Below, one piece after another: positions 1,663 through 25,341 of a stretch of 42,036 nt of DNA. Origin of the DNA: Aliiruegeria lutimaris (GTDB lineage: Bacteria > Pseudomonadota > Alphaproteobacteria > Rhodobacterales > Rhodobacteraceae); the NCBI RefSeq assembly GCF_900099935.1, contig NZ_FNEK01000041.1, forward strand, positions 1 through 42,036, written 5' to 3'. The notes beneath the pieces are model-generated. The model worked only from the letters and a program-made list of their open reading frames with translations, made no database searches and was not told the DNA's origin. The number at the start of each line of letters is the position of its first letter. Position 1 is the first letter of the stretch. Position numbers and translations under genes: made by a program.

Positions 1663-3054
1663 CTAGGCCGGAGGCTTCTTGTAGGCATAGAGCGCGGCAC
1701 AGGCGCAGGAGACAAGGCGCGCCTTCTCGTCATCGGCCCGGCTGGTCAGGATGATCGGGCATTTCGCGCCGATCACGACCCCGCCGGCCTCGGCATGGGC
1801 GATGAAGGTCAGCTCCTTGGCCAGCATATTGGCGCTTTCCAGGTTCGGCGCGATCAGGATCTCGGCCTGGCCGGCCACCATGGACTGGATCCCCTTGGTG
1901 CGGGCCGCCTCGATATCGATGGCGTTGTCCATGGCCAGCGGACCATCGACCAGCGCGCCGCGGATCTGGCCGCGCTCGGCCATCTTGGAAATGGCGGCGG
2001 CATCGAGCGTCGAGGGGATCTTGGGGGTCACCGTCTCCACCGCCGACAGGATTCCCACCTTGGGCACTTCAATCCCCAGCGTATGCGCCAGGTCGATCGC
2101 GTTCTGCGTGATGTCGACCTTGGTCTCCAGGTCCGGCGCGATATTGATCGCCGCATCCGAGATCAGCAGCAGATGGGTCAGCCCCGGCACGTCCATCACG
2201 AAGACATGGGAGAGCCGGCGCCCCGTCCGCAGCCCACCATCGCGCTTGACCACCTGGCCGAGCAGTTCGTCTGTATGCAGCTGCCCCTTCATCACCGCCT
2301 GGGCCCTGCCCTCGTGAACAAGACGTACGCCGATCGCGGCGGCCAGCTTGTGGTTGGGCTCGTGGATCAGCTCGAAGCCGGAAATATCGCGGCCAATGGC
2401 CTTGGCGGCGGCCCGGATCTTGACCTCGTCCCCGATCAGGATCGGGTCGATGATCGTGTGATCGGCCCCCAGAAGTGCACCAAGCAGGGCGTCCTCCGAT
2501 TCCGGCGCGATCACCGACGTCTTCATCGGCGGCAGCGGCTCGGCTTCCTTGAGCAGCTTGTCGAAATGCACATGGCGCTGGACGATCATGCCGGGAATGT
2601 CATCGACATTGTAGTCCATCTGCTCAAGCGGCGCGAAGACCTCGACGAACCCCTCGAGCAGCTTCTTGCCGCTTGTCGTGTCCACCCGGCAGGCAAATTT
2701 CGCGACATTGTTGTCGAGCTTCTCGGTCAGCACCACCTTTACGACCAACTCGTCCCCGTCATGGGCGCGCTCGAAGAACTCGACCTTGTGCGATTTGTAG
2801 AGTGTCCCCGGGCCGGGCAACTTGTTGCCGAGCGCCGAGGAAATCAGCGTCGAAACCCACATTGCCGGCGCCACCGGCTCGTGCAGCGCGTCGGTTCCCT
2901 CGAAATCCTTCATGCGGGGAAAGTGCTTGGGGTTCATATTGCCGGTGATATTGGCAAAGACGAAGAAATCGTCGGCCCGACAGACCCGTCGAACCTCGGC
3001 CTCCATGCCGATTTCCAACTTGTCCCACGGCGTATTGCTCAGTGTGGTCATCAT
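1663..3054 (-). CDS. Bifunctional enoyl-CoA hydratase/phosphate acetyltransferase (MaoC-PTA fusion)
   Basis: The 463-residue protein has an N-terminal MaoC-like hot-dog domain (about 1-145; MNPKHFPRMKD is in the hydratase region) joined to a phosphate acetyl/butyryltransferase domain (about 160-460; VIAPESEDALLGALLGA, then DGPLAMDNAIDIEAARTKG and the NLESANMLAKEL segment). Fusions of this type occur widely in alphaproteobacteria, where they interconvert acyl-CoA and acyl phosphate, often beside acetate kinase. No acetate kinase gene is in this window. The start is ATG ATG at 3054/3051 after GGTAGGGATGGG. The hydratase activity is inferred from the domain only. Confidence 0.85.
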   Translation of the reverse strand: MMTTLSNTPWDKLEIGMEAEVRRVCRADDFFVFANITGNMNPKHFPRMKDFEGTDALHEPVAPAMWVSTLISSALGNKLPGPGTLYKSHKVEFFERAHDGDELVVKVVLTEKLDNNVAKFACRVDTTSGKKLLEGFVEVFAPLEQMDYNVDDIPGMIVQRHVHFDKLLKEAEPLPPMKTSVIAPESEDALLGALLGADHTIIDPILIGDEVKIRAAAKAIGRDISGFELIHEPNHKLAAAIGVRLVHEGRAQAVMKGQLHTDELLGQVVKRDGGLRTGRRLSHVFVMDVPGLTHLLLISDAAINIAPDLETKVDITQNAIDLAHTLGIEVPKVGILSAVETVTPKIPSTLDAAAISKMAERGQIRGALVDGPLAMDNAIDIEAARTKGIQSMVAGQAEILIAPNLESANMLAKELTFIAHAEAGGVVIGAKCPIILTSRADDEKARLVSCACAALYAYKKPPA

Positions 3055-3333
3055 CCCATCCCTACCGGATCGCGGGTGCCGAAACAGTGAGAGGGCGGCA
3101 TCCGGTTGACCGCCCGTACGACATTTCTCCCCGCTATGGATTTTGCATGTCGAGCCATTGAAAGAAAGCCTGCGCGACGCAACGACAATGGCGATAGCGG
3201 GGAGCTTTACCCACTCGGGCGGAAATGCCGCACCGCGGCGTCCCGTCGGGCTTCCAAAAGGGAGGCTATGCGACCGGCGATGCGCATGTTAGCCATTTAT
3301 CATAACGACTTGCTGAAGGAAGGGGCGTGTCCG
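3055..3333. promoter_or_regulatory. Divergent intergenic region
   Basis: This 279-base gap separates the leftward acyltransferase gene from the rightward small exported protein gene, so it should hold both promoters. No convincing -35/-10 pair or operator was identified. Confidence 0.3.
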
Positions 3334-3759
3334 ATGAAATCGATATCTGCAATTGCGCTTGGGCTTGCGATGGCCACGGGAATTGGCGCGACGCCGGCCG
3401 GCGCCCAGCAAGCGCAGTTCGAGCTCGAACTCAACAGCCTGAAACCGGTCGAGACCGGCTGCAGGCTGACCTATGTGGCCCGGAACGCGACCGGTACAGA
3501 CCTTGAGGCGGCCTCGTTCGAAGTTGCCGTGTTCGATGGCGCTGGCTCGGTCAGCCGCCTGCTGATCCTCGAATTCGGCGCGCTGCGCGACGGCAAGACG
3601 AAGGTTGTGCAATTCGACCTCGCTGGACAGGACTGCGGCGAGATTTCCCGCCTGCTGATCAATGATATCGCCGAATGCTCCGCCGCCCAGGGCGACGCCC
3701 CGGACTGCATACAGGCGCTTTCACCGAGCAGCCGGACCGAGGTTCAGTTCGGCCTGTGA
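3334..3759 (+). CDS. Small exported protein of unknown function
   Basis: The 141-residue protein begins with a Sec signal peptide (MKSISAIALGLAMATG, cleavage likely after PAGAQ or AGA), so it should be periplasmic. The mature part is a compact beta-rich sequence with three cysteines: one in TGCRLTY, one in GQDCGEIS and one each in AECSAA and PDCIQ, giving four in total and possibly two disulfides. The ATG at 3334 is chosen because GAAGGAAGGGG lies 8-15 bases upstream and it yields a clean signal peptide; a longer in-frame extension to 3106 has no such support. It converges on phnM1 with only 21 bases between the stops. I do not recognise the family. Confidence 0.7.
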   Translation: MKSISAIALGLAMATGIGATPAGAQQAQFELELNSLKPVETGCRLTYVARNATGTDLEAASFEVAVFDGAGSVSRLLILEFGALRDGKTKVVQFDLAGQDCGEISRLLINDIAECSAAQGDAPDCIQALSPSSRTEVQFGL

Positions 3760-3780
3760 TCCAGCCCCGGGCCGCCCGGA

Positions 3781-4920
3781 TCATCCGACCCGGCGGCCCG
3801 CGACCCAGTTGCCACGCACGGCGCCGGCTCCGGCCACCCGGTGCACCCGGATGATATCGGCCCGCGCGCCGATCTCGATCCGCCCACGATCGTGCAGGTC
3901 GACCACGTCCGCCGGCGCGCGGGTCACGGTGCGCACCCCGCGTGCGACATCGCCCCACAGGTCCCCCAGCATCAGCGCCGCTGTCAGCAGCGCCGAGGGT
4001 ACGTAATCGGAACTCAGGATATCCAGCAGGTCGGCTTCCGCCAGGTCCTGCGCGGCCACGTTGCCGGAATGGCTGCCGCCCCTGATGAGGTTCGGGGCTC
4101 CCATCATCACCGCGATTCCCCGCTCGTGGCAGGCGGCCGCCGCTTCGTGAGTGGTGGGGAATTCCGCCAGCCGCACGCCATGGGCGGCCGAGGTTCCGAC
4201 ATGGTCCGCCAGCGTGTCGTCATGGCTGGCCAGAACCGCGCCGTAGCGGCGCGCCTCCGCGACCGCGGCGCGTTCGTGTAGCTCACCGTAGCGCGCGCGC
4301 AGTTCCTTCATATGCGCGACATGCTCCTCGAACCCGTCGTCCGACAGCGCGTGCTTGCCCTGTACGTAGGCCTTCAGTTTGGAGATGTCCCGGAACTGCC
4401 GCTGGCCCGGGGTGTGGTCCATCAGGCTGACGATCCCGACCCGGTCTTCCGGGCCGAACTCCGCCATCTCCTGCACCAGCGTCTGTGAACAGACCTCGGC
4501 GCGCAGATGCAGGAAATGGCTGATCCTGAGCGCCCCCGAAGCGCGCAGATGCAACATCTCGGTCGCCAACTGGCGCGCATAGGCCCGGTAATTCGTCCGC
4601 GCGCTCTGCACCGACCCCACCCGCATCGCGTCGAAAACGGTGGTAACACCGACGCTGGCCAACTCGCCATCATGCGCGATCATGGCCGCCGCATGCGGCC
4701 AGTCGACCTTGGGCCGCGGCTGGATGTGGCGCTCCAGGTTGTCGGTGTGCAGCTCGATCAGGCCGGGCATCACCATGTCGCCCTCGCAATCCAGCGCACC
4801 GGCCGGTACCGCCGCGCCCTGCCCGATCCCGGCAATCCGCCCGCCAGCGATGCGCAGGCTGCCGGTCACCACCTCCTCGGGTAGAACCAGCTGTGCATTG
4901 GCCAGGATTATCTCGTTCAT
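3781..4920 (-). CDS. phnM: Alpha-D-ribose 1-methylphosphonate 5-triphosphate diphosphatase, PhnM (copy 1)
   Basis: This 379-residue amidohydrolase-fold enzyme removes pyrophosphate from the ribosylated phosphonate triphosphate made by the PhnGHI(L) system, giving the substrate of the radical-SAM C-P lyase PhnJ. Visible metal-site and family signatures are ELHTDNLERHIQPRP near residue 57, SLMDHTPGQRQFRD, LASHDDT and GAPNLIRGGSHSGNVAA. Length is normal for PhnM. It is divergent from the DUF1045 gene (71 bases between starts) and lies beyond the distal end of the main operon. A second, more divergent PhnM paralogue is encoded at 12833-14014. Confidence 0.92.
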   Translation of the reverse strand: MNEIILANAQLVLPEEVVTGSLRIAGGRIAGIGQGAAVPAGALDCEGDMVMPGLIELHTDNLERHIQPRPKVDWPHAAAMIAHDGELASVGVTTVFDAMRVGSVQSARTNYRAYARQLATEMLHLRASGALRISHFLHLRAEVCSQTLVQEMAEFGPEDRVGIVSLMDHTPGQRQFRDISKLKAYVQGKHALSDDGFEEHVAHMKELRARYGELHERAAVAEARRYGAVLASHDDTLADHVGTSAAHGVRLAEFPTTHEAAAACHERGIAVMMGAPNLIRGGSHSGNVAAQDLAEADLLDILSSDYVPSALLTAALMLGDLWGDVARGVRTVTRAPADVVDLHDRGRIEIGARADIIRVHRVAGAGAVRGNWVAGRRVG

Positions 4921-4991
4921 CTACCGTCTCCGGGCTGTCTGCTCTCGCCGTGCGGGCCGCTCTGTGCTAGGCGCGCATGAGGAGGCATGTC

Positions 4992-5681
4992 ATGGATGGA
5001 TTCACGCGTTACGCGCTCTTTTACGCACCGCCGGCCGGGCCGCTGGCCGATTTCGGCGCCGCCTGGCTGGGATGGGATCCGCGCAACGGGAAACGCGTGG
5101 CGCATCCCGCCCTGCCCGGCCTGCCGCTGCCGGTTGCCGAGATCACCGAAACGCCGCGCAAATACGGCTTCCACGGCACGCTCAAGCCGCCCTTCCAGCT
5201 CAAGCCCGGATTCGACGTGGCCGAGCTGCACAACGCCGCCGAGGCGCTCGCCGCGATGCTGCCGCCGGTTCTGCTCGACGGGCTTAAACTCTCCCGCATC
5301 GGCAGCTTCCTTGCCCTCGTGCCCAAAGGCGACACGACGCAACTCGCGCTCCTCGCCGCCCGCGTGGTCGAGGCTCTGGACGGCTTCCGCGCCGCTCCCG
5401 AGGAAGACGAACTTGCGCGGCGCCGTAAACCCGGCCTGTCGGCACGGCAGGAGGTGCTGCTGCAGCAATGGGGCTACCCCTACGTCATGGAAGAGTTCCG
5501 CTTTCACCTGACGCTCTCCGGAAATCTGCCCGACGCCGTGGCCGACGCCGTGGCTGCGCGCCTGCATCCCGTGGTCGAGCCGCTGCTGCCGCGTCCCTTC
5601 AGGATCCGCGAAATCTGCCTCTTCGGCGAGGGGCAGGACGGGCGTTTCCACCACCTGCATCGCTACACGCTCTCCGGCTGA
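4992..5681 (+). CDS. DUF1045 phosphonate-operon protein (2H phosphoesterase-like)
   Basis: This 229-residue protein belongs to the DUF1045 family found in alphaproteobacterial phn operons. Two HxT motifs, GFHGTLKPPF near residue 60 and FRFHLTLSGN near residue 170, mark it as a 2H-phosphoesterase-like fold. By analogy it may act on a cyclic phosphate such as the 5-phosphoribosyl 1,2-cyclic phosphate released by C-P lyase, the job of PhnP in E. coli; no phnP is seen here. The ATG at 4992 is preferred over 4977 because AGGAGG sits 6 bases upstream. Its 3' end overlaps the convergent phnN by 19 bases. Confidence 0.8.
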   Translation: MDGFTRYALFYAPPAGPLADFGAAWLGWDPRNGKRVAHPALPGLPLPVAEITETPRKYGFHGTLKPPFQLKPGFDVAELHNAAEALAAMLPPVLLDGLKLSRIGSFLALVPKGDTTQLALLAARVVEALDGFRAAPEEDELARRRKPGLSARQEVLLQQWGYPYVMEEFRFHLTLSGNLPDAVADAVAARLHPVVEPLLPRPFRIREICLFGEGQDGRFHHLHRYTLSG

Positions 5682-6205
5682 AGCACGCCGAGAAAGTCCC
5701 GTACCGCGTGGTCGAGGCTGCCGTCATTCTCCACCACCCGGATCGGGGGGCCATAAGGGATCTGGTAGTCCGCCCGCGCCAGCCGCCGGGCGATCTCCTG
5801 CTTGCTCTCCCGCCCCCGCGCCGCCAGCCGCTCGGCCAGCACGGGCACAGAGGCCGTCACGAGGATCACCGTCAGGCCGGGAAACACCTCCCATGCCCGG
5901 CCCAGGATGCCGCGCGAACCATTGAAAAGCACGTTGCGCCCCTCGGAGATCGCCCGGTCGACACTGCGGGGAATGCCATAGCAGAGCCCATGCGCCTGCC
6001 AGTCCAGCACGAAATCTCCCGCCACCTTGCGGCGCGCAAACTCGGCCTCGCTCACCCCCTCGAACGGCTCGCCGCCGGCCGTCTCCGGCCGGGTGATCAC
6101 GCGCCGCACAAGGTGCAGATCGGGCCGGTGCCGCTTGACCTCGGCCATCAGCGTATCCTTACCCGCTCCCGATGGCCCGACCACCGCGAAGAGCCGCCCC
6201 CCCAT
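5663..6205 (-). CDS. phnN: Ribose 1,5-bisphosphate phosphokinase PhnN
   Basis: The 180-residue kinase phosphorylates ribose 1,5-bisphosphate to PRPP, recycling the ribose used in C-P lyase chemistry. The P-loop GPSGAGKDT is at residues 10-18, followed by a guanylate-kinase-like core with a LNGSRG-type segment (VLFNGSRGIL). The start ATG is one base after the phnL stop, so translation is probably coupled. The first codons contain a run of seven G that is in frame, a useful comparison with the out-of-frame A7 runs in phnD and the acyltransferase gene. The 3' end overlaps the convergent DUF1045 gene. Confidence 0.9.
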   Translation of the reverse strand: MGGRLFAVVGPSGAGKDTLMAEVKRHRPDLHLVRRVITRPETAGGEPFEGVSEAEFARRKVAGDFVLDWQAHGLCYGIPRSVDRAISEGRNVLFNGSRGILGRAWEVFPGLTVILVTASVPVLAERLAARGRESKQEIARRLARADYQIPYGPPIRVVENDGSLDHAVRDFLGVLQPESV

Positions 6206-6206
6206 C

Positions 6207-6890
6207 TCAGGCTGCCCTTTGAGGGGTGAACCCCGTCACGTCGATCTCGCGGTCGCAAACCTGCTCCCGCGCGGCGGCATCGTGGAAGATCCCGACGATC
6301 GCCGCCCCGCGCGCCTTGGCCTCCTCGATCAGGGCCAGCACCGTGGCGCGATTGACCGCGTCGAGGCTCGCCGTCGGCTCGTCCAGAAGCAGCGCCGGAT
6401 AGCCATGCGCAAAGCCGCGCGCGACATTCACCCGCTGCTGCTCGCCGCCGGAAAAGGTCGTCGGAGACAGGCCCCAGAGCGTGCGCGGAATGTTCAGCCG
6501 CTCCAGCAGCGCCGCCGCCCGCGCCCGGGCGGCCTCCAGTTCGACCCCGACCGCCAACAACGGTTCCGCCACCACGTCCAGCGTCGGAACCCGCGGCACG
6601 ACCCGTAAGAACTGGCTTACATATCCAATCGTTACCCGGCGAAGCTCAAGTATTTCCCGAGGTTCGGCGCGTGCTACGTCCACGCCATCCACGACAATAC
6701 ACCCAGCCTGCGCGAGGTAATTGCCATAGATCATCCGCATCAGCGTCGACTTGCCGGCCCCCGATGCGCCGACCAGCGCCACGCATTCCCCCGGCTGCAC
6801 GCTCAGGGTCGCGTTTTGCATCACCGGGATCACTGCCGCGCCCTGGTTGTGAAGCGTGAAGCTCTTGGCCACGTCCTTCAGTTCGATCAT
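6207..6890 (-). CDS. phnL: C-P lyase ABC-type ATPase PhnL
   Basis: This 227-residue ABC ATPase is a soluble part of the C-P lyase system, not a transporter. Walker A is GASGAGKST, the signature is FSGGEQQRVNVARGF, Walker B is ALLLDEPTASLD, and the switch His is in GIFHDAAA. PhnL-type features are YVSQFLRVVPRVPTLDVVAEPL and the unusual FHD switch. The ATG at 6890 gives the normal N-terminus MIELKDVAKSF; a 29-residue upstream extension is not supported. It follows corA by 22 bases and precedes phnN by one base. Confidence 0.92.
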   Translation of the reverse strand: MIELKDVAKSFTLHNQGAAVIPVMQNATLSVQPGECVALVGASGAGKSTLMRMIYGNYLAQAGCIVVDGVDVARAEPREILELRRVTIGYVSQFLRVVPRVPTLDVVAEPLLAVGVELEAARARAAALLERLNIPRTLWGLSPTTFSGGEQQRVNVARGFAHGYPALLLDEPTASLDAVNRATVLALIEEAKARGAAIVGIFHDAAAREQVCDREIDVTGFTPQRAA

Positions 6891-12832: not shown

Positions 12833-14014
12833 ATGCAAGCCGCTCTCCCCCCTGTGCGCTTCACGGGCGCGCAAATCCTACGCGACGGCGAACTTCAGCG
12901 CCGCTCACTGGCCGTTGCCAACGGCCGGATCACCAAGGGTCCCCTGCCCGAGGTGGACATGCGCGGCTACCTGCTGCTGCCGGGGATCATCGACCTGCAT
13001 GGCGATGCCTTCGAGCGCCATATCGTCCCTCGGCCGAACGCGCCCTTCGATCCGTCCATCGGCCTTTGCTCGGTCGATCGCGACGCCGCCGTCAACGGGG
13101 TGACCACCGCCTGGCTGGCCGTATCCTGGTCCTGGGAGGGAGGCTTCCGCGGGCCGGATTCCGCCGAGCGCATCCAGGATGCGCTGACCGCCTATCGCCC
13201 GCATATGGGCACGGACCTGCATGTGCAATTGCGCTGCGAAACCCACATGATCGACAGCGCGGACCGAATGCTCGCCGCAATCCGGCGCCATGGCGTGGAT
13301 TACGTGGTGTTCAACAACCACCTGCACGAGGCGTTGGAGCTTGCCCGGAGCAAGCCGGAGGAGGTCGCCCACTGGGCCAGCCGAGAGGGACGCACGCTGG
13401 AGCAGCACATGGCGCTGGTTCGGGAGATGCTGTCAAGCAGCAAGGAGGTGCCGCGCCACCTGTGCCGGCTGGCCGAAGCCTTCGACGTACTTGGCGTGCG
13501 CTATGGAAGCCATGACGACCCCGATGGGGAAACCCGCGAGACCTATTCGATGATCGGCGCTTCCATCGCCGAGTTCCCCACCACGCGCCGCGCCGCCGCC
13601 GCCGCCAAGGCGATGAACGACCCGGTGATCATGGGCGCGCCCAATGTCCTGCGCGGCGGCAGCCAGTCCGGCAATGTGCGCGCGACGGACCTGATCTCGC
13701 AGAAGCTCTGCGACGCGCTGGTCTCGGACTATTACTACCCGGCCCTCGCCGGGGCGGCCTGGACCCTGGTCGATCGGGGCATCTGCGATCTGCCCGGCGC
13801 CTGGGCGATGATTTCCTCCCGGCCCGCCGAGATCCTGCGCCTGTTTGACCGGGGCAGCCTGGACTTTGGCCGGCGCGCCGATCTTGTCGCCGTAAACGAG
13901 CAGACACGGGCCATCGAGATGACGATTTCGGGGGGCGTCCTGACCCATCTCAGCCACGGCGCTGCACGTCGCGTTGCCGCCGGTCCGCAGCATCTCGACA
14001 TGGCCGCAGAATAG
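12833..14014 (+). CDS. phnM: PhnM-type amidohydrolase, second paralogue
   Basis: The 393-residue protein is a second PhnM-like enzyme (alpha-D-ribose 1-methylphosphonate 5-triphosphate diphosphatase family). Signatures are IIDLHGDAFERHIVPRPNAPFD, a FETH-like CETHMIDS, YGSHDDPDGETR, and IMGAPNVLRGGSQSGNVRA. It differs from copy 1 at several active-site stretches: HGDAFERH instead of HTDNLERH, and VVFNNHLHEAL where copy 1 has the MDHTPGQ loop. It may have a shifted substrate range. It follows phnF by 135 bases on the same strand and could be cotranscribed. No damage is seen. Confidence 0.85.
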   Translation: MQAALPPVRFTGAQILRDGELQRRSLAVANGRITKGPLPEVDMRGYLLLPGIIDLHGDAFERHIVPRPNAPFDPSIGLCSVDRDAAVNGVTTAWLAVSWSWEGGFRGPDSAERIQDALTAYRPHMGTDLHVQLRCETHMIDSADRMLAAIRRHGVDYVVFNNHLHEALELARSKPEEVAHWASREGRTLEQHMALVREMLSSSKEVPRHLCRLAEAFDVLGVRYGSHDDPDGETRETYSMIGASIAEFPTTRRAAAAAKAMNDPVIMGAPNVLRGGSQSGNVRATDLISQKLCDALVSDYYYPALAGAAWTLVDRGICDLPGAWAMISSRPAEILRLFDRGSLDFGRRADLVAVNEQTRAIEMTISGGVLTHLSHGAARRVAAGPQHLDMAAE

Positions 14015-14182
14015 GTCCGCAAGCGCCTTCGGTGAGTCGTTCTTCGCGCTTTCCCGAAACCCCTTTCTTTGCTCGCCAACGCCCCAAAGGTCTCCCGCCG
14101 CCCTTGCGGCCCCGCGCGGCAACGCGATTGCGACCTTTTGCAGCCCTAATCCATTCCAGGTTTGCCGCCACGCAACCATGCG

Positions 14183-14216
14183 GAAGATAGCTAAAAATCT
14201 TCGCATCTGGTATAAT
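14183..14216 (+). promoter_or_regulatory. Extended -10 promoter with an adjacent inverted repeat, upstream of the first YGW-repeat gene
   Basis: TATAAT at 14211-14216 is preceded by TGG, a full extended -10 (TGnTATAAT). No good -35 is seen at 16-18 bases, as is acceptable with an extended -10. The inverted repeat GAAGAT (14183-14188)/ATCTTC (14197-14202), with an A-rich spacer, overlaps the -35 position and could be an operator. The transcript should start near 14223, about 35 bases before the first repeat codons. Confidence 0.6.
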
Positions 14217-14257
14217 AACAAGGCATGGGCGCGCGAAACCTGCGGGAGGAGTGAGAC

Positions 14258-14554
14258 GTAGCAGACGGGTGGCACTACGAATACGATTGGCAATATGGCT
14301 GACATTATGAACCAGGTTGGGCCTATGGCTGGGTTTATGACTACGGTTGGCTCTATGGCTGGACCTACGATTATGGTTGGCTCTACGACTATGGCTGGCT
14401 CTACGGATACTACTATGACTACGGCTGGACCTACGGGTATGGCTGGCTCTATGGCTGGTATGCCGGCTGGGGTTGGACCTATGGCTGGACCTGGAGCTAT
14501 GGCTGGGATTACGGCTGGTATCTTGGCTGGGGCTGGGATTACGGCTGGTATTGA
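14258..14554 (+). pseudogene. First YGW-repeat gene copy, lacking an ATG and carrying an internal TGA
   Basis: In one frame from 14258 to the TGA at 14552-14554 the sequence encodes about 98 residues of YGW/YDYGW units (for example WLYGWTYDYGW) closely like the second copy: WQYG-stop-HYEPGW here matches WQYGWHYDPGW there. GGAGGA (14245-14250) stands 7 bases before codon GTA (14258) followed by Ala-Asp, just where the second copy has ATG-Ala-Glu. Codon 15 (14300-14302) is TGA where the second copy has TGG. No usable in-frame start follows. Third-position changes (TAT/TAC, GGC/GGT) are silent in this frame only, so it evolved as coding sequence. Promoter, ribosome site and terminator remain. 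It is probably recently inactivated. Confidence 0.7.
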
Positions 14555-14600
14555 TCCCTCGACAGGCGGCGGAATATCCCGCCCCATGGACGCAGACAAC

Positions 14601-14631
14601 AAAGGCGCCACCTTCGGGTGGCGTCTTTCAT
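14601..14631 (+). terminator. Strong Rho-independent terminator after the first YGW-repeat copy
   Basis: A 12-bp stem (14601-14612 against 14617-14628, one G-T wobble) is closed by the stable TTCG tetraloop. The 3' arm ends in CTTT and is followed by CATTT. It lies 47 bases past the end of the first repeat copy, so each copy must have its own promoter. Confidence 0.85.
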
Positions 14632-14981
14632 TTCAAAGGGCAAGGAAACAGGGGTCCTCCGCGAGCCCCCGTGGCTGGGTCATGCGCGGATTTCTGTGCA
14701 TCCTCCTACGGAGCCCATCACAAAGTACGACACATTTTAGCGAGCCCGAGCGCTTCATCCTCAGGATCTCGGCAGAGTTTTTTTCAGCCCGAAATTGCAG
14801 CCCATTGGCAAATCTGGAAAAACGCTGACGGCCACCCGGCATCGGCCGGGCCGCTTCCAAGGCAACCCGCAATTAGACAGGCATTTGATCCAAATCGAAA
14901 ATTCATCCAGCTGGATGGCACTTGCGCTTCTCGCTAGCGTGACCGCGAGGTTTCCTGTCTACTTGGCTGAAGGGCAGCAAA
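14629..14981. other. Intergenic stretch between the two YGW-repeat copies
   Basis: This 353-base stretch has no gene. It must contain the promoter of the second copy because a strong terminator precedes it, but no good -35/-10 pair is visible. The ribosome site ahead of 14982 is weak (GAAGGGCAG, about 4 bases from ATG). It does not resemble the upstream region of the first copy. Confidence 0.4.
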
Positions 14982-15746
14982 ATGGCCGAGCTGCGTTACG
15001 AGTACACTTACGACTGGCAATATGGCTGGCATTACGATCCGGGCTGGGTCTACGCCTATAGCTGGCAATTCGGGTGGCATTACAGCTACGGCTGGATCCA
15101 TGACTTCGGCTGGCTCTATGGCTGGAATTACGGCTGGGCCTATGGGTATGGCTGGCAATATGGCGGCTATTACGGATGGTTTCTGGGCGACAGCTGGTTC
15201 TATGGCTGGAATTATGGGTGGGTCCAATCCCATGGCTGGCATTATAGCTGGTACCTGGGCTGGAGCTATGGCTGGGGCTGGAACAACGGCTGGCACTATG
15301 GCTGGACCTATGGCTATGGCTGGTTCTGGAATTATGGCTGGTCGTCGGGCAGCTGGAATGTCGGATGGCATAGCGGATATGGATGGTATGTCGGCTGGGA
15401 TTACGGCTGGTACGTCAACCATGGCTGGCATTTCGGCTGGAACCTTGGCTACTGGTGGTCGCATGGCTGGAACTATGGCTGGTATGTAGGCCACAGCTGG
15501 ATCCATGGCTGGCATCAGGGCTGGTATGCCGGCTATGGTTGGTCCCCCGGTTGGAACTATGGTTGGTACACCGGTTATGGATGGCTCCACGGCTATAGCT
15601 GGGATTACGGCTGGCATCTCGGCTGGGGTTGGGGCTACGGCGACGTATGGCAGTATGGCTGGCACTGGGGCTATGGATGGTCGTGGGGCTATGGATGGGA
15701 TTACGGCGGATACTGGGGGTGGGGCTGGACCATCAGCTACTACTGA
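14982..15746 (+). CDS. Trp/Tyr/Gly-rich YGW-repeat protein, undescribed
   Basis: The 254-residue protein consists almost wholly of 4- and 6-residue units ending in GW (NYGW, HYGW, YVGW, TYGYGW, YTGYGW). It has 55 Trp, 47 Tyr and 59 Gly, about 63 percent of all residues. There is no Cys or Lys, and the only Met is the initiator. Trp spacing is nearly always even: Trp 1-24 sit at even residue numbers (12-120), and after one shift at SSGSW all but one of the later Trp sit at odd numbers (125-249). This is what extended strands with an aromatic face and a Gly/polar face would show. No signal peptide or hydrophobic membrane segment is seen. Codon third positions vary freely (TAT/TAC; GGC/GGT/GGA/GGG) while residues hold, indicating selection on protein. 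Function is unknown; a solenoid or aromatic-stacked fibre or glycan binder is speculation. Confidence 0.8.
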   Translation: MAELRYEYTYDWQYGWHYDPGWVYAYSWQFGWHYSYGWIHDFGWLYGWNYGWAYGYGWQYGGYYGWFLGDSWFYGWNYGWVQSHGWHYSWYLGWSYGWGWNNGWHYGWTYGYGWFWNYGWSSGSWNVGWHSGYGWYVGWDYGWYVNHGWHFGWNLGYWWSHGWNYGWYVGHSWIHGWHQGWYAGYGWSPGWNYGWYTGYGWLHGYSWDYGWHLGWGWGYGDVWQYGWHWGYGWSWGYGWDYGGYWGWGWTISYY

Positions 15747-16156
15747 GTTCGTGTCGCGAAAGGGATCGGCGCGTCGGGCGGAAAATGAAGCGCTTTTTCC
15801 TGCAGCCGCGCCACCGCCAGGAGAGGCACTTTGGGCCCGGGATCTCGGGCGGTTTCGACAGCATCCGCCGGCGAGCGCCTCAAGGATCACGCGTGCCGAG
15901 AAGACGGCCATCCGGGGGCGCTGCCCCCAGACCCCCGGGATATTTCCGGAAAGAGGAAGGAACGGGCCACCGTTGAAAGTGCACAGGTTCCGGGAGAAAT
16001 GCGCGCTTTGACTTCCACAATCGGTGAGCCTCCGGAGATTGCGCCACTGCATTTGGCAACATCAGGACAAGGGCACTGTGAAACGGATGCCTGGTGGCGC
16101 CAGGTACTCGGTGAAATTCCCGCCGGGGAACGAAACCCGGCGTGCTGTATCGCGGA
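15747..16156. other. Convergent intergenic region with dispersed repeat
   Basis: This 410-base gap lies between the rightward YGW-repeat gene and the leftward double-GAF gene. It holds GGGGGC/GCCCCC (15914-15919/15923-15928) and a GGGATATTT-CGGAAAGAGGAAGG module (about 15938-15960) that recurs at 25305-25328. No gene or clear terminator with a T-run was found. Confidence 0.5.
15914..15960. repeat. Dispersed intergenic palindromic repeat, copy 2
   Basis: The GGGGGC/GCCCCC hairpin is followed by CCGGGATATTTCCGG and AAAGAGGAAGG. The latter half matches the sequence just after phnE2 (GGGATATTTGTGGAAAGAGGAAGG near 25306). It is an intergenic element family, not a gene. Confidence 0.5.
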
Positions 16157-17275
16157 TCACTGGGCCGCGCGCAGGTCGAGAATATATTGCAGCAGCGCTG
16201 CTTCGGAGCGCTTCAACCGGTCGATCTGGGAAAAGATCTCGAGCTGCGTGATCGTGAACATGGCGATAACGCTGACAAGCAGTGTGTCGCTCTCCATATC
16301 GTCGATGCAATTCGGCCCGTCACCGACGAATTCCAGCGTCCCGTAGGCGATTCCGTCAAGGATCAGCGGTGTGCCGACGAATTTGCGTGGCGTGGACCCG
16401 TCGAAGGCGCATTTTCCCGCCAACCCGGCCGTTTGCGGATTTGCGAACCAGACGATTTCCTGTCCAGACATCAAATGCGCGGTCAGGCTGGCGGAATTGT
16501 CCGGGTTGCCCGGCGGCATGTCCTGGTCGGTGCTGCAAAATCGCGCGATCACCAGCGTGCGCGACCCGTCCACCCGCGTCACCCCGGCCGCGCGCATTTT
16601 CAGCGCCCGGCACCCTGCCGCCAACATTGCCTGCAACCGTTGCTCGGCGCTCTTGTCCGGTTCGGTGAAGGCGGCAATGATGGTGTCTCGGATGGCGGCG
16701 TTGCGCCGGGAACGGTTCAACGCGCGTTCCAGATCGTTCTGAAGCTGCCGGCTGGTGATCAGGGCCGCCCGCAGCAGGATCGCATCCGTCGCGCAATGGG
16801 CAAGATCCTGCATGACCGCGATGTCTTCCTCGCTCCAGTGGCGCACCTTGGGATCAACCACGCAAAGCGCCCCGAGAGCAGCCCCAGTCGGCCCGAAAAT
16901 CGGCGCCCCGAGATAGGAACGAAAGGGAAGTTGATCCAGCTCGGCCAGCTCGCCCCCCAAGGGATGGGTGTCCTTGTCATTGACGGCAAGCGGGACCGCA
17001 TCGCGGTGGACAAACTGGCTGAAGGATTTCGTGAGCGGGATCCAACCCGCCTGTTCCCACTCTGTCGGCATGCCCAGCCCGCTGACCAGGATCTGCCGTT
17101 CCACCTGCTGTTCGAACACGCCGATCAGCGCCATTTTCGCCGAAAAGATACGCCGCACGACCCGGGTGATATATTTCAGCGCCCCCTGCTCGTCGGGGTT
17201 GCATAAACCGAGCTCGTCGATTGAAAAGGCCTTTTGCCGGACAACCGGCGCGGGCTGGAGCTGCAACGCGGTCAT
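16157..17275 (-). CDS. Double-GAF-domain protein without an output domain
   Basis: The 372-residue protein contains two GAF domains: about 25-185 (ALIGVFEQQVERQIL ... FRSYLGAPIFGPTGAALGALCVVDP) and about 215-350 (FVGTPLILDGIAYGTLEFVGD), joined by a helical linker. No kinase, cyclase or DNA-binding domain follows; the C-terminus is a short helix ending LRAAQ. It is probably a soluble sensor or adaptor, with ligand unknown. The ATG at 17275 has GAGG at suitable spacing; a GTG at 17308 is the alternative. It lies 92 bases downstream of the ThDP enzyme gene on the same strand and could be cotranscribed. Confidence 0.75.
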   Translation of the reverse strand: MTALQLQPAPVVRQKAFSIDELGLCNPDEQGALKYITRVVRRIFSAKMALIGVFEQQVERQILVSGLGMPTEWEQAGWIPLTKSFSQFVHRDAVPLAVNDKDTHPLGGELAELDQLPFRSYLGAPIFGPTGAALGALCVVDPKVRHWSEEDIAVMQDLAHCATDAILLRAALITSRQLQNDLERALNRSRRNAAIRDTIIAAFTEPDKSAEQRLQAMLAAGCRALKMRAAGVTRVDGSRTLVIARFCSTDQDMPPGNPDNSASLTAHLMSGQEIVWFANPQTAGLAGKCAFDGSTPRKFVGTPLILDGIAYGTLEFVGDGPNCIDDMESDTLLVSVIAMFTITQLEIFSQIDRLKRSEAALLQYILDLRAAQ

Positions 17276-17367
17276 ATCGACCTCGATTGATCTGACAAGA
17301 ATGGACACAGCTTGCCGGCTAATTCATTAAATTGAGGTTAACTTTTGCAACGGTCGCGGCGCTGTCC

Positions 17368-25275: not shown

Positions 25276-25328
25276 CTGCCGGCACGCCGGCAGATGCCTC
25301 CGGCGGGGATATTTGTGGAAAGAGGAAG
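25276..25328. repeat. Palindrome and dispersed repeat after phnE2
   Basis: CTGCCGGC (25276-25283) and GCCGGCAG (25286-25293) form a near-perfect hairpin two bases after the phnE2 stop, followed by the GGGGATATTT-GTGGAAAGAGGAAGG module also present near 15938-15960. It has no T-run, so it is a processing or stability element more than a classical terminator. Confidence 0.6.
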
Positions 25329-25341
25329 GTGAGAGCACCGG

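Follow-up and report, generated by a model that had tools for sequence, protein, structure and literature searches.

The choline-binding and glucan-binding (YG) repeats are aromatic-rich repeated tails on secreted and surface proteins, and a Pfam family, W_rich_C, exists for the tryptophan-rich domains of cyanobacteria. In RTX proteins, C-terminal repeats follow M10-type protease or Ig/cadherin-like domains and are exported without a Sec signal; RTX-tailed proteases and adhesins are known type I substrates. In silk-like proteins, functional amyloid beta-repeats and tryptophan zipper peptides, a residue class recurs at every second position, a pattern that suits beta strands. According to one study, a single protein of Synechococcus WH7805 (EAR17767.1) joins tryptophan-rich repeated domains to peptidase domains and cadherin repeats, and was detected in the exoproteome (PMC4949707). 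Another describes the surface adhesin BAD-1 of Blastomyces, which contains WxxWxxW repeats with conserved Trp (PMC3708853).

The present analysis concerns a repeat module designated here as the W-tail, which is probably undescribed and, to judge from the proteins that carry it as a tail, probably works outside the cell. The group was delimited by a Trp content above 18% and mostly even Trp–Trp spacing, a definition drawn from its own members: a stand-alone protein built of YGW units (the YGW protein), a degenerate copy upstream of its gene, two further proteins of the same genome (C95 and the tail of C126), and two tails from a metagenome-assembled genome (MAG), Co_bin.241. W-tails resemble RTX proteins in their C-terminal position after M10-type protease or Ig/cadherin-like domains and in the lack of a Sec signal, but they are aromatic and match neither HemolysinCabind nor Peptidase_M10_C in Pfam, and the C126 protein has no GGxGxD motif. 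From choline- and glucan-binding repeats they differ by a period of two residues, even-length units and the lack of any Pfam match at E-values up to 10. Compared with silk-like or amyloid proteins and with tryptophan zippers (cf. PMC2705519), they contain far more Trp and show no homology, and their fold is a prediction. The repeats of BAD-1 form disulphide-bonded 17-residue loops (PMC3708853), whereas the W-tail of the YGW protein has no Cys and a different spacing. Like the Trp-rich domains of EAR17767.1, W-tails accompany peptidase and cadherin domains; Trp-rich modules on exported protease- or cadherin-type proteins are thus already a known kind. The W-tail family is set apart from the cyanobacterial domain by Pfam, in which it has no match, on the assumption that W_rich_C is present in the copy used.

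The YGW gene, its degenerate copy and their neighbourhood

The window, a 42,036-nucleotide stretch of Aliiruegeria lutimaris DNA, contains the YGW gene between a presumably phnM-like amidohydrolase gene and a gene for a GAF-domain protein (Table 1). A recount of the 254 residues gave 55 Trp, 59 Gly and 47 Tyr, with no Cys or Lys, in agreement with the original prediction, and in addition 16 His and 16 Ser. The N-terminus (MAELRYEYTYDWQYGW) has neither a basic start nor a hydrophobic core, and hence does not look Sec-like by eye; it is followed by a leading motif, YGWHYDPGW, at residues 14-22. Successive Trp residues are separated mainly by 4 (27 cases), 6 (16) or 2 (7) positions, and occasionally by 5 (2), 1 (1) or 8 (1), so that 51 of 54 spacings are even, a value that was never reached when the residues were shuffled 2000 times. 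A single Trp register runs unbroken from residue 12 to residue 120. Over the whole protein, an aromatic residue is followed by another aromatic with a frequency of 0.15 at the next position and 0.65 at the position after that. The tandem DNA units measure 12, 18 and 42 bp, all even in codons. Units of four or six residues ending in GW had been proposed; the 12- and 18-bp units bear this out, while the gene also contains a 14-codon unit and some units do not end in GW.

Table 1. Positions of the YGW gene, the features around it and the W-tail genes elsewhere (positions without a prefix refer to the window)
Feature	Position	Strand	Remarks
Amidohydrolase, presumably phnM-like (left flank)	12833-14014	+	80% identical in G008
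Stretch without counterpart in G008	14015-16156		~2.1 kb
TATAAT	14211-14216	+	Upstream of degenerate copy, behind inverted repeat GAAGAT-8-ATCTTC (14183-14202)
Degenerate copy, same design as YGW gene	14255-14554	+	~97 codons; ~430 bases upstream of YGW gene
Terminator-like palindrome between the two copies	14606-14623	-	Weak; scan gave this strand only
Stand-alone YGW/W-tail protein	14982-15746	+	254 aa; ATG to TGA
GAF-domain protein (right flank)	16157-17308	-	62% identical in G008
C95 stand-alone repeat protein	L024:397-1533	-	378 aa; 19% Trp
C126 matrixin with W-tail	L025:9492-10505	-	337 aa; PF00413, E 4.6e-22, residues 24-158
Co_bin.241 W-tail genes (G173, C135)	JAUIIC010000125.1		MAG, Alphaproteobacteria bacterium Co_bin.241

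The degenerate copy, which the original prediction had overlooked, keeps its frame except for an in-frame TGA (14300-14302), and no ATG, GTG or TTG lies between the preceding stop (14252-14254) and this codon. All 19 of its Trp–Trp spacings are even, as are its tandem units in codons (18, 30 and 60 bp). Over 51 codons, it differs from the YGW gene at 9, 9 and 26 first, second and third positions, respectively, a count that depends on the protein alignment and was given less weight than the alignment-free codon test described below.

Only one promoter-like site was found near the YGW gene, no more than chance expects. A consensus promoter scan did not include the TATAAT upstream of the degenerate copy among its sites. 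At the C95 gene, too, a TATAAT directly follows an inverted repeat of 6 bases; five TATAAT occur across the five loci scanned, and a third, unrelated one also has such a repeat. The arrangement at the two genes might perhaps mark a shared regulated promoter, a weak suggestion, or it may be chance.

In G008, the member of the genus with the best-matching flanking genes (as judged by the GAF gene), the phnM-like and GAF genes are adjacent, approximately 125 bases apart; therefore, either one lineage acquired the intervening stretch of the window or the other lineage lost it. A mobile element was considered as the source and rejected: no transposase was recognised among the ORFs listed within the stretch, the stretch shares no non-repeat DNA with the other two W-tail loci of the genome, for one piece of it the sole match in the rest of the genome spans 44 bases, and plasmids yielded no match.

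Two minor features of the window were also recorded. A 24-base repeat, 92% identical, occurs downstream of the YGW gene (15937-15960) and at 25306-25329, where it falls in the gap separating two ORFs or at the beginning of the latter one. Furthermore, a second phnM-like amidohydrolase gene (3781-4920, minus strand) is 31% identical to the plus-strand gene on the left flank, and the pair lies near a phnG gene.

Relatives, their distribution and the position of the tail

The original prediction knew of no family with this design. Indeed, no Pfam family matched any of the five intact tails at E-values up to 10, the RTX, DUF4214, choline-binding and glucan-binding models included; the YGW protein gave no match at E up to 1 or 10, the M10 zinc protease domain of its C126 relative included. 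Comparison with PHROGs was likewise negative for all five tails. With NCBIfam, the YGW protein gave one match, far below threshold (15 bits; cut-off, 650), and the other four tails gave none. Among PDB sequences there was no credible match, the lone profile match (1rkx, E 0.04) being taken as chance. A literature search, conducted mostly without subscription journals, found no paper on YGW repeats; a "tryptophan-rich" protein in PMC12448352 is a sensory protein unrelated to the W-tail.

The view of a lone design, in contrast, did not survive: relatives occur elsewhere in the genome itself as well as in a second genus, and three of the five intact members are tails on proteins of exported kind. 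A protein search with the YGW protein among 60 relatives returned a single genome, its own; a further protein search found C126 at no better than E 2.1e-5 and did not list C95. In the C126 protein, a matrixin, the last 174 residues are repeat (22% Trp), with 36 of 38 Trp–Trp spacings even. The stand-alone C95 protein is the least regular of the group (53/69). A transposase fragment lies approximately 4 kb from the C95 copy. Beside the C95 gene (L024, in contig C95 of the A. lutimaris genome, G000; 2865-5405, minus strand), an NTP_transf_5 nucleotidyltransferase gene, an 83-residue small ORF and a gene for a protein with a weak, below-cut-off HPr-kinase match form a set reminiscent of peptide-modification clusters, e.g. 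those of lasso peptides; a DDE_3 transposase fragment follows.

The remaining two tails were found by a family-wide pattern search in Co_bin.241 (G173), which belongs to another genus of the family; this MAG is 84% complete, and the assignment of its W-tails depends on binning. One open frame of 557 codons encodes Big_9 and Cadherin domains followed by a 164-residue tail with 32% Trp. The other, of 741 codons, encodes PPC, Peptidase_M10_C and one RTX match, which falls outside the tail, followed by a 201-residue tail with 24% Trp; the NCBIfam serralysin model matches this protein at E 2.3e-47, yet below its curated cut-off. Even spacings number 47/51 and 41/48 in the two tails. The other four intact tails are 41 to 48% identical to the YGW protein, but at such composition this identity is little proof of kinship; strong pairwise scores between tails were obtained with masking and composition correction switched off. 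The common descent of W-tails is unproven on these sequences, and convergence may account for their likeness.

Near the tail start, YGWHYDPGW in the YGW protein has counterparts in C95 (YGWHLEPSGY), C135 (YGWHVDPAGW) and, in similar form, the degenerate copy; FGWYLNDPGF, noticed by eye in the untrimmed serralysin of Co_bin.241, brings the total to five of six tails, C126 being the one that lacks it, for a motif that was picked after the sequences had been seen. Its position suggests that the stand-alone proteins start where the tail domain starts. Across the W-tails, Asp and Glu together exceed Lys and Arg, and Lys and Cys are few. No shared C-terminal end was seen by eye.

Pattern searches at the DNA level were used to gauge distribution. 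Three copies of TAYGGNTGG were detected in one of nine genus genomes (its own, the eight other species lacking it), two of 394 family genomes (its own and G316, there out of frame), six of 385 class genomes (its own and five unlike by eye) and nine of 398 phylum genomes (its own and eight unlike by eye), in sets that overlap; these misses are weak evidence, as the pattern also missed Co_bin.241 in the family set. TGGN9 x4 TGG matched 198 of 295 family genomes, and 42 of 48 chosen genomes in a follow-up; among the matches listed, Co_bin.241 was the only genome with aromatic arrays in the former and the only one alike in the latter. A TGGNNNTDBGGNTGG-type pattern matched 81 of 272 relatives of Co_bin.241, a set outside which A. 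lutimaris falls, and among the matches listed only Co_bin.241 itself was alike by eye. In viral contigs, the first pattern gave 20 stretches, none alike, and the second gave at least 120, 117 of them new, of which the 22 richest in Trp were unlike by eye. Genome contigs yielded at least 118 loci, with one relative, Co_bin.241 again (L144), among the 12 richest. A protein search of phages and plasmids with the YGW protein returned no match, with BLAST masking low complexity. Thus, among the matches listed, and by DNA patterns blind to other spacings or codons, the W-tail is known from two genomes only, and the gene is very rare. Nevertheless, a complete absence of homologues, which the original prediction had named as speaking against it, was not observed, and the orphan status of the gene is refuted by the relatives in its own genome and Co_bin.241. 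Because the pattern is missing from the eight other species of the genus and one copy has decayed, the gene appears dispensable.

The C126 protease was compared with 23 other homologous ORFs, 21 from the family (many of them weak, with E up to 1e-3) and two from plasmids. HExGH is present in 21 of the 23, and at least two GGxGxD motifs are present in 20, the exceptions being L184, L204 and L205, which have none; the Trp fraction in their tails is 0 to 0.025. L205, from Sulfitobacter, is annotated as a DUF4214 protein. In a two-sequence comparison, the L205 stub that precedes DUF4214 has its counterpart in residues 461-542 of the Co_bin.241 serralysin (36%, E 1e-8), and the W-tail begins at the border of this aligned stub. 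Behind this shared stub, a related protease thus has DUF4214 at the position of the W-tail, although W-tails differ from DUF4214 in having no Pfam match and in the 22-32% Trp of the three fused tails. The C126 matrixin aligns well with L205 over the catalytic part only (38%). In L204 (plasmid NZ_CP116424.1 of Sulfitobacter faviae, 3998-6693), the matrixin and DUF4214 genes look like pieces of one Sulfitobacter indolifex gene and are separated by a gene for an IS4 family transposase.

Codon usage and the two-residue register

Silent third-position variation alongside constant residues, and hence selection at the protein level, had been claimed for the YGW gene, and both claims hold. Its GGN codons comprise 42 GGC and 17 others, whereas all 55 TGN codons are TGG (Fisher p 4.7e-6). 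Over the five intact tails, there are 265 TGG, 2 TGC, 0 TGT and 0 TGA codons against 141 GGC and 62 other GGN codons (Fisher p 4e-23), one C135 tail with GGC only being uninformative by itself. This test requires no alignment. Because TGG stays constant while GGN varies, the repeat DNA drifts at silent third positions but hardly where Trp would become Cys or a stop; selection acts at the protein level on W-tails, a conclusion to which the shuffled-sequence comparison adds. The third-position test and the three fusions to recognised domains, which set the reading frame of those tails, together fix the frame of the W-tails. Alternative reading frames at the locus were ruled out on both strands, including the long minus-strand ORF that overlaps the gene (14934-16052).

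In the five intact tails and the degenerate copy together, 247 of 279 Trp–Trp spacings are even, counts that are not independent, because even spacing is passed on whenever an even-length unit is duplicated in tandem. In 38 Trp-rich control windows of 80 residues, some of them out-of-frame readings, 258 of 503 spacings are even; for the subset of 17 windows that are also rich in Tyr and Gly, the figure is 120 of 228. Four of the 38 (L029, L275, L057 and L115) are as even as the W-tails, L275 being a plain WL repeat. In W-tails, an aromatic residue has another one two positions further along with a frequency of 0.52 to 0.84. Slippage alone would not demand units of an even number of codons, yet every unit (12, 18, 30, 42 and 60 bp) is of this kind. 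The aromatics would thus tend to one face of an extended chain, as expected if a strand were aromatic on one side. Structure prediction, as had been advised, gave two single-sequence AlphaFold models in which the repeat is drawn largely as long strands, with mean pLDDT values of 38.8 and 35.8 (very low); these strands are too low in confidence to serve as evidence, and the beta reading depends on the periodicity.

Possible roles of the W-tail

The tail most probably acts outside the cell through stacking of its aromatic face, either on further copies or on a glycan. Of the two we tentatively prefer the former, in which the YGW protein would be the stand-alone form of a rare C-terminal module that stacks on itself. 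Export of W-tail proteins would not involve a Sec signal and would probably proceed by type I secretion; the tail would adopt a beta conformation (strands or a sheet) that is aromatic on one side, and tails may stack through these aromatic sides. Stand-alone copies could then form or cover a layer outside the cell or at its surface, in which tailed enzymes and adhesins would be held by the same aromatic contact. Self-stacking is favoured because two of the proteins are pure tail, whereas in the rest the tail follows an enzyme or adhesin-like portion, an arrangement that would fit a scaffold and its clients. The complete arrangement, with pure W-tail proteins polymerising into a surface or matrix layer onto which tailed proteases and adhesins dock, is doubtful. 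An exported C-terminal module is indicated by the RTX motifs that most related proteases (20/23) carry at that place. As RTX-tailed proteases and adhesins are type I substrates, export may fairly be assumed for the fused tails, and less safely for the stand-alone proteins. Inspection by eye of the ORFs around the loci (6 to 42 kb each) revealed no type I exporter or adaptor, and the ABC transporters there look like uptake systems; the genes of many type I systems lie elsewhere.

Rows of Trp and Tyr might instead stack on sugar rings, which would make the W-tail a glycan- or polymer-binding module and the stand-alone protein a multivalent lectin. This is somewhat unlikely. The C-terminal place of the tail on proteases and an adhesin-like protein, where the choline- and glucan-binding repeats of Gram-positive bacteria also sit, and the +2 recurrence of aromatics speak for it, but none of the five members matches a Pfam family, the composition and period of known binding repeats differ from those of the W-tail, and a protein of nothing but repeat would be unusual for a lectin. 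Nevertheless, the evidence here does not separate self-stacking from ligand binding. If the tail were chiefly a module for export and folding, standing in for RTX repeats in type I secretion and without a function of its own outside, its occupation of the RTX/DUF4214 place in related proteases, its excess of Asp over basic residues and its few Lys and Cys would follow; however, two of the proteins are tail alone, the Co_bin.241 serralysin keeps its RTX match too, and the RTX models match no tail, which renders this reading improbable.

That the YGW gene is a non-functional repeat expansion, unexpressed and decaying like its upstream neighbour, is quite improbable. The decay of that copy, the absence of the gene from relatives and the single promoter-like site are what this account would predict, but it is at odds with 265 TGG against 2 TGC codons beside free GGN variation, with even spacing across unit lengths in five proteins, and with in-frame fusion to protease and Ig/cadherin domains. 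An optical or redox role, as a UV screen or radical sink of Trp and Tyr, draws on composition only and predicts neither the protease and adhesin fusions nor the two-residue register; we consider it very improbable. Thus, of the roles that the original prediction left open, the context favours extracellular structural, adhesive or binding ones over light absorption and redox protection, without eliminating either of the latter.

The Trp content of the three fused tails is extreme for a module of a natural protein, and the two-residue register provides a testable structural prediction. Should the tail assemble or bind as proposed, W-tails would represent an undescribed way of holding secreted enzymes and adhesins at the Gram-negative surface, and an aromatic beta material open to production and study in a laboratory strain. 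The scaffold-client arrangement would retain secreted proteins without sortase, choline or calcium.

Proteins rich in GYPGYGW or GGPGYGW units were encountered in L060 (Tamlana), L134 (a Rhodospirillales MAG), L208 and L210, with even Trp–Trp spacing in 3/11, 9/15, 3/11 and 4/13 cases, respectively. The WNGGYGW repeat of L057, from an Ardenticatenaceae MAG, has 11 of 13 even spacings and a composition unlike that of a W-tail.
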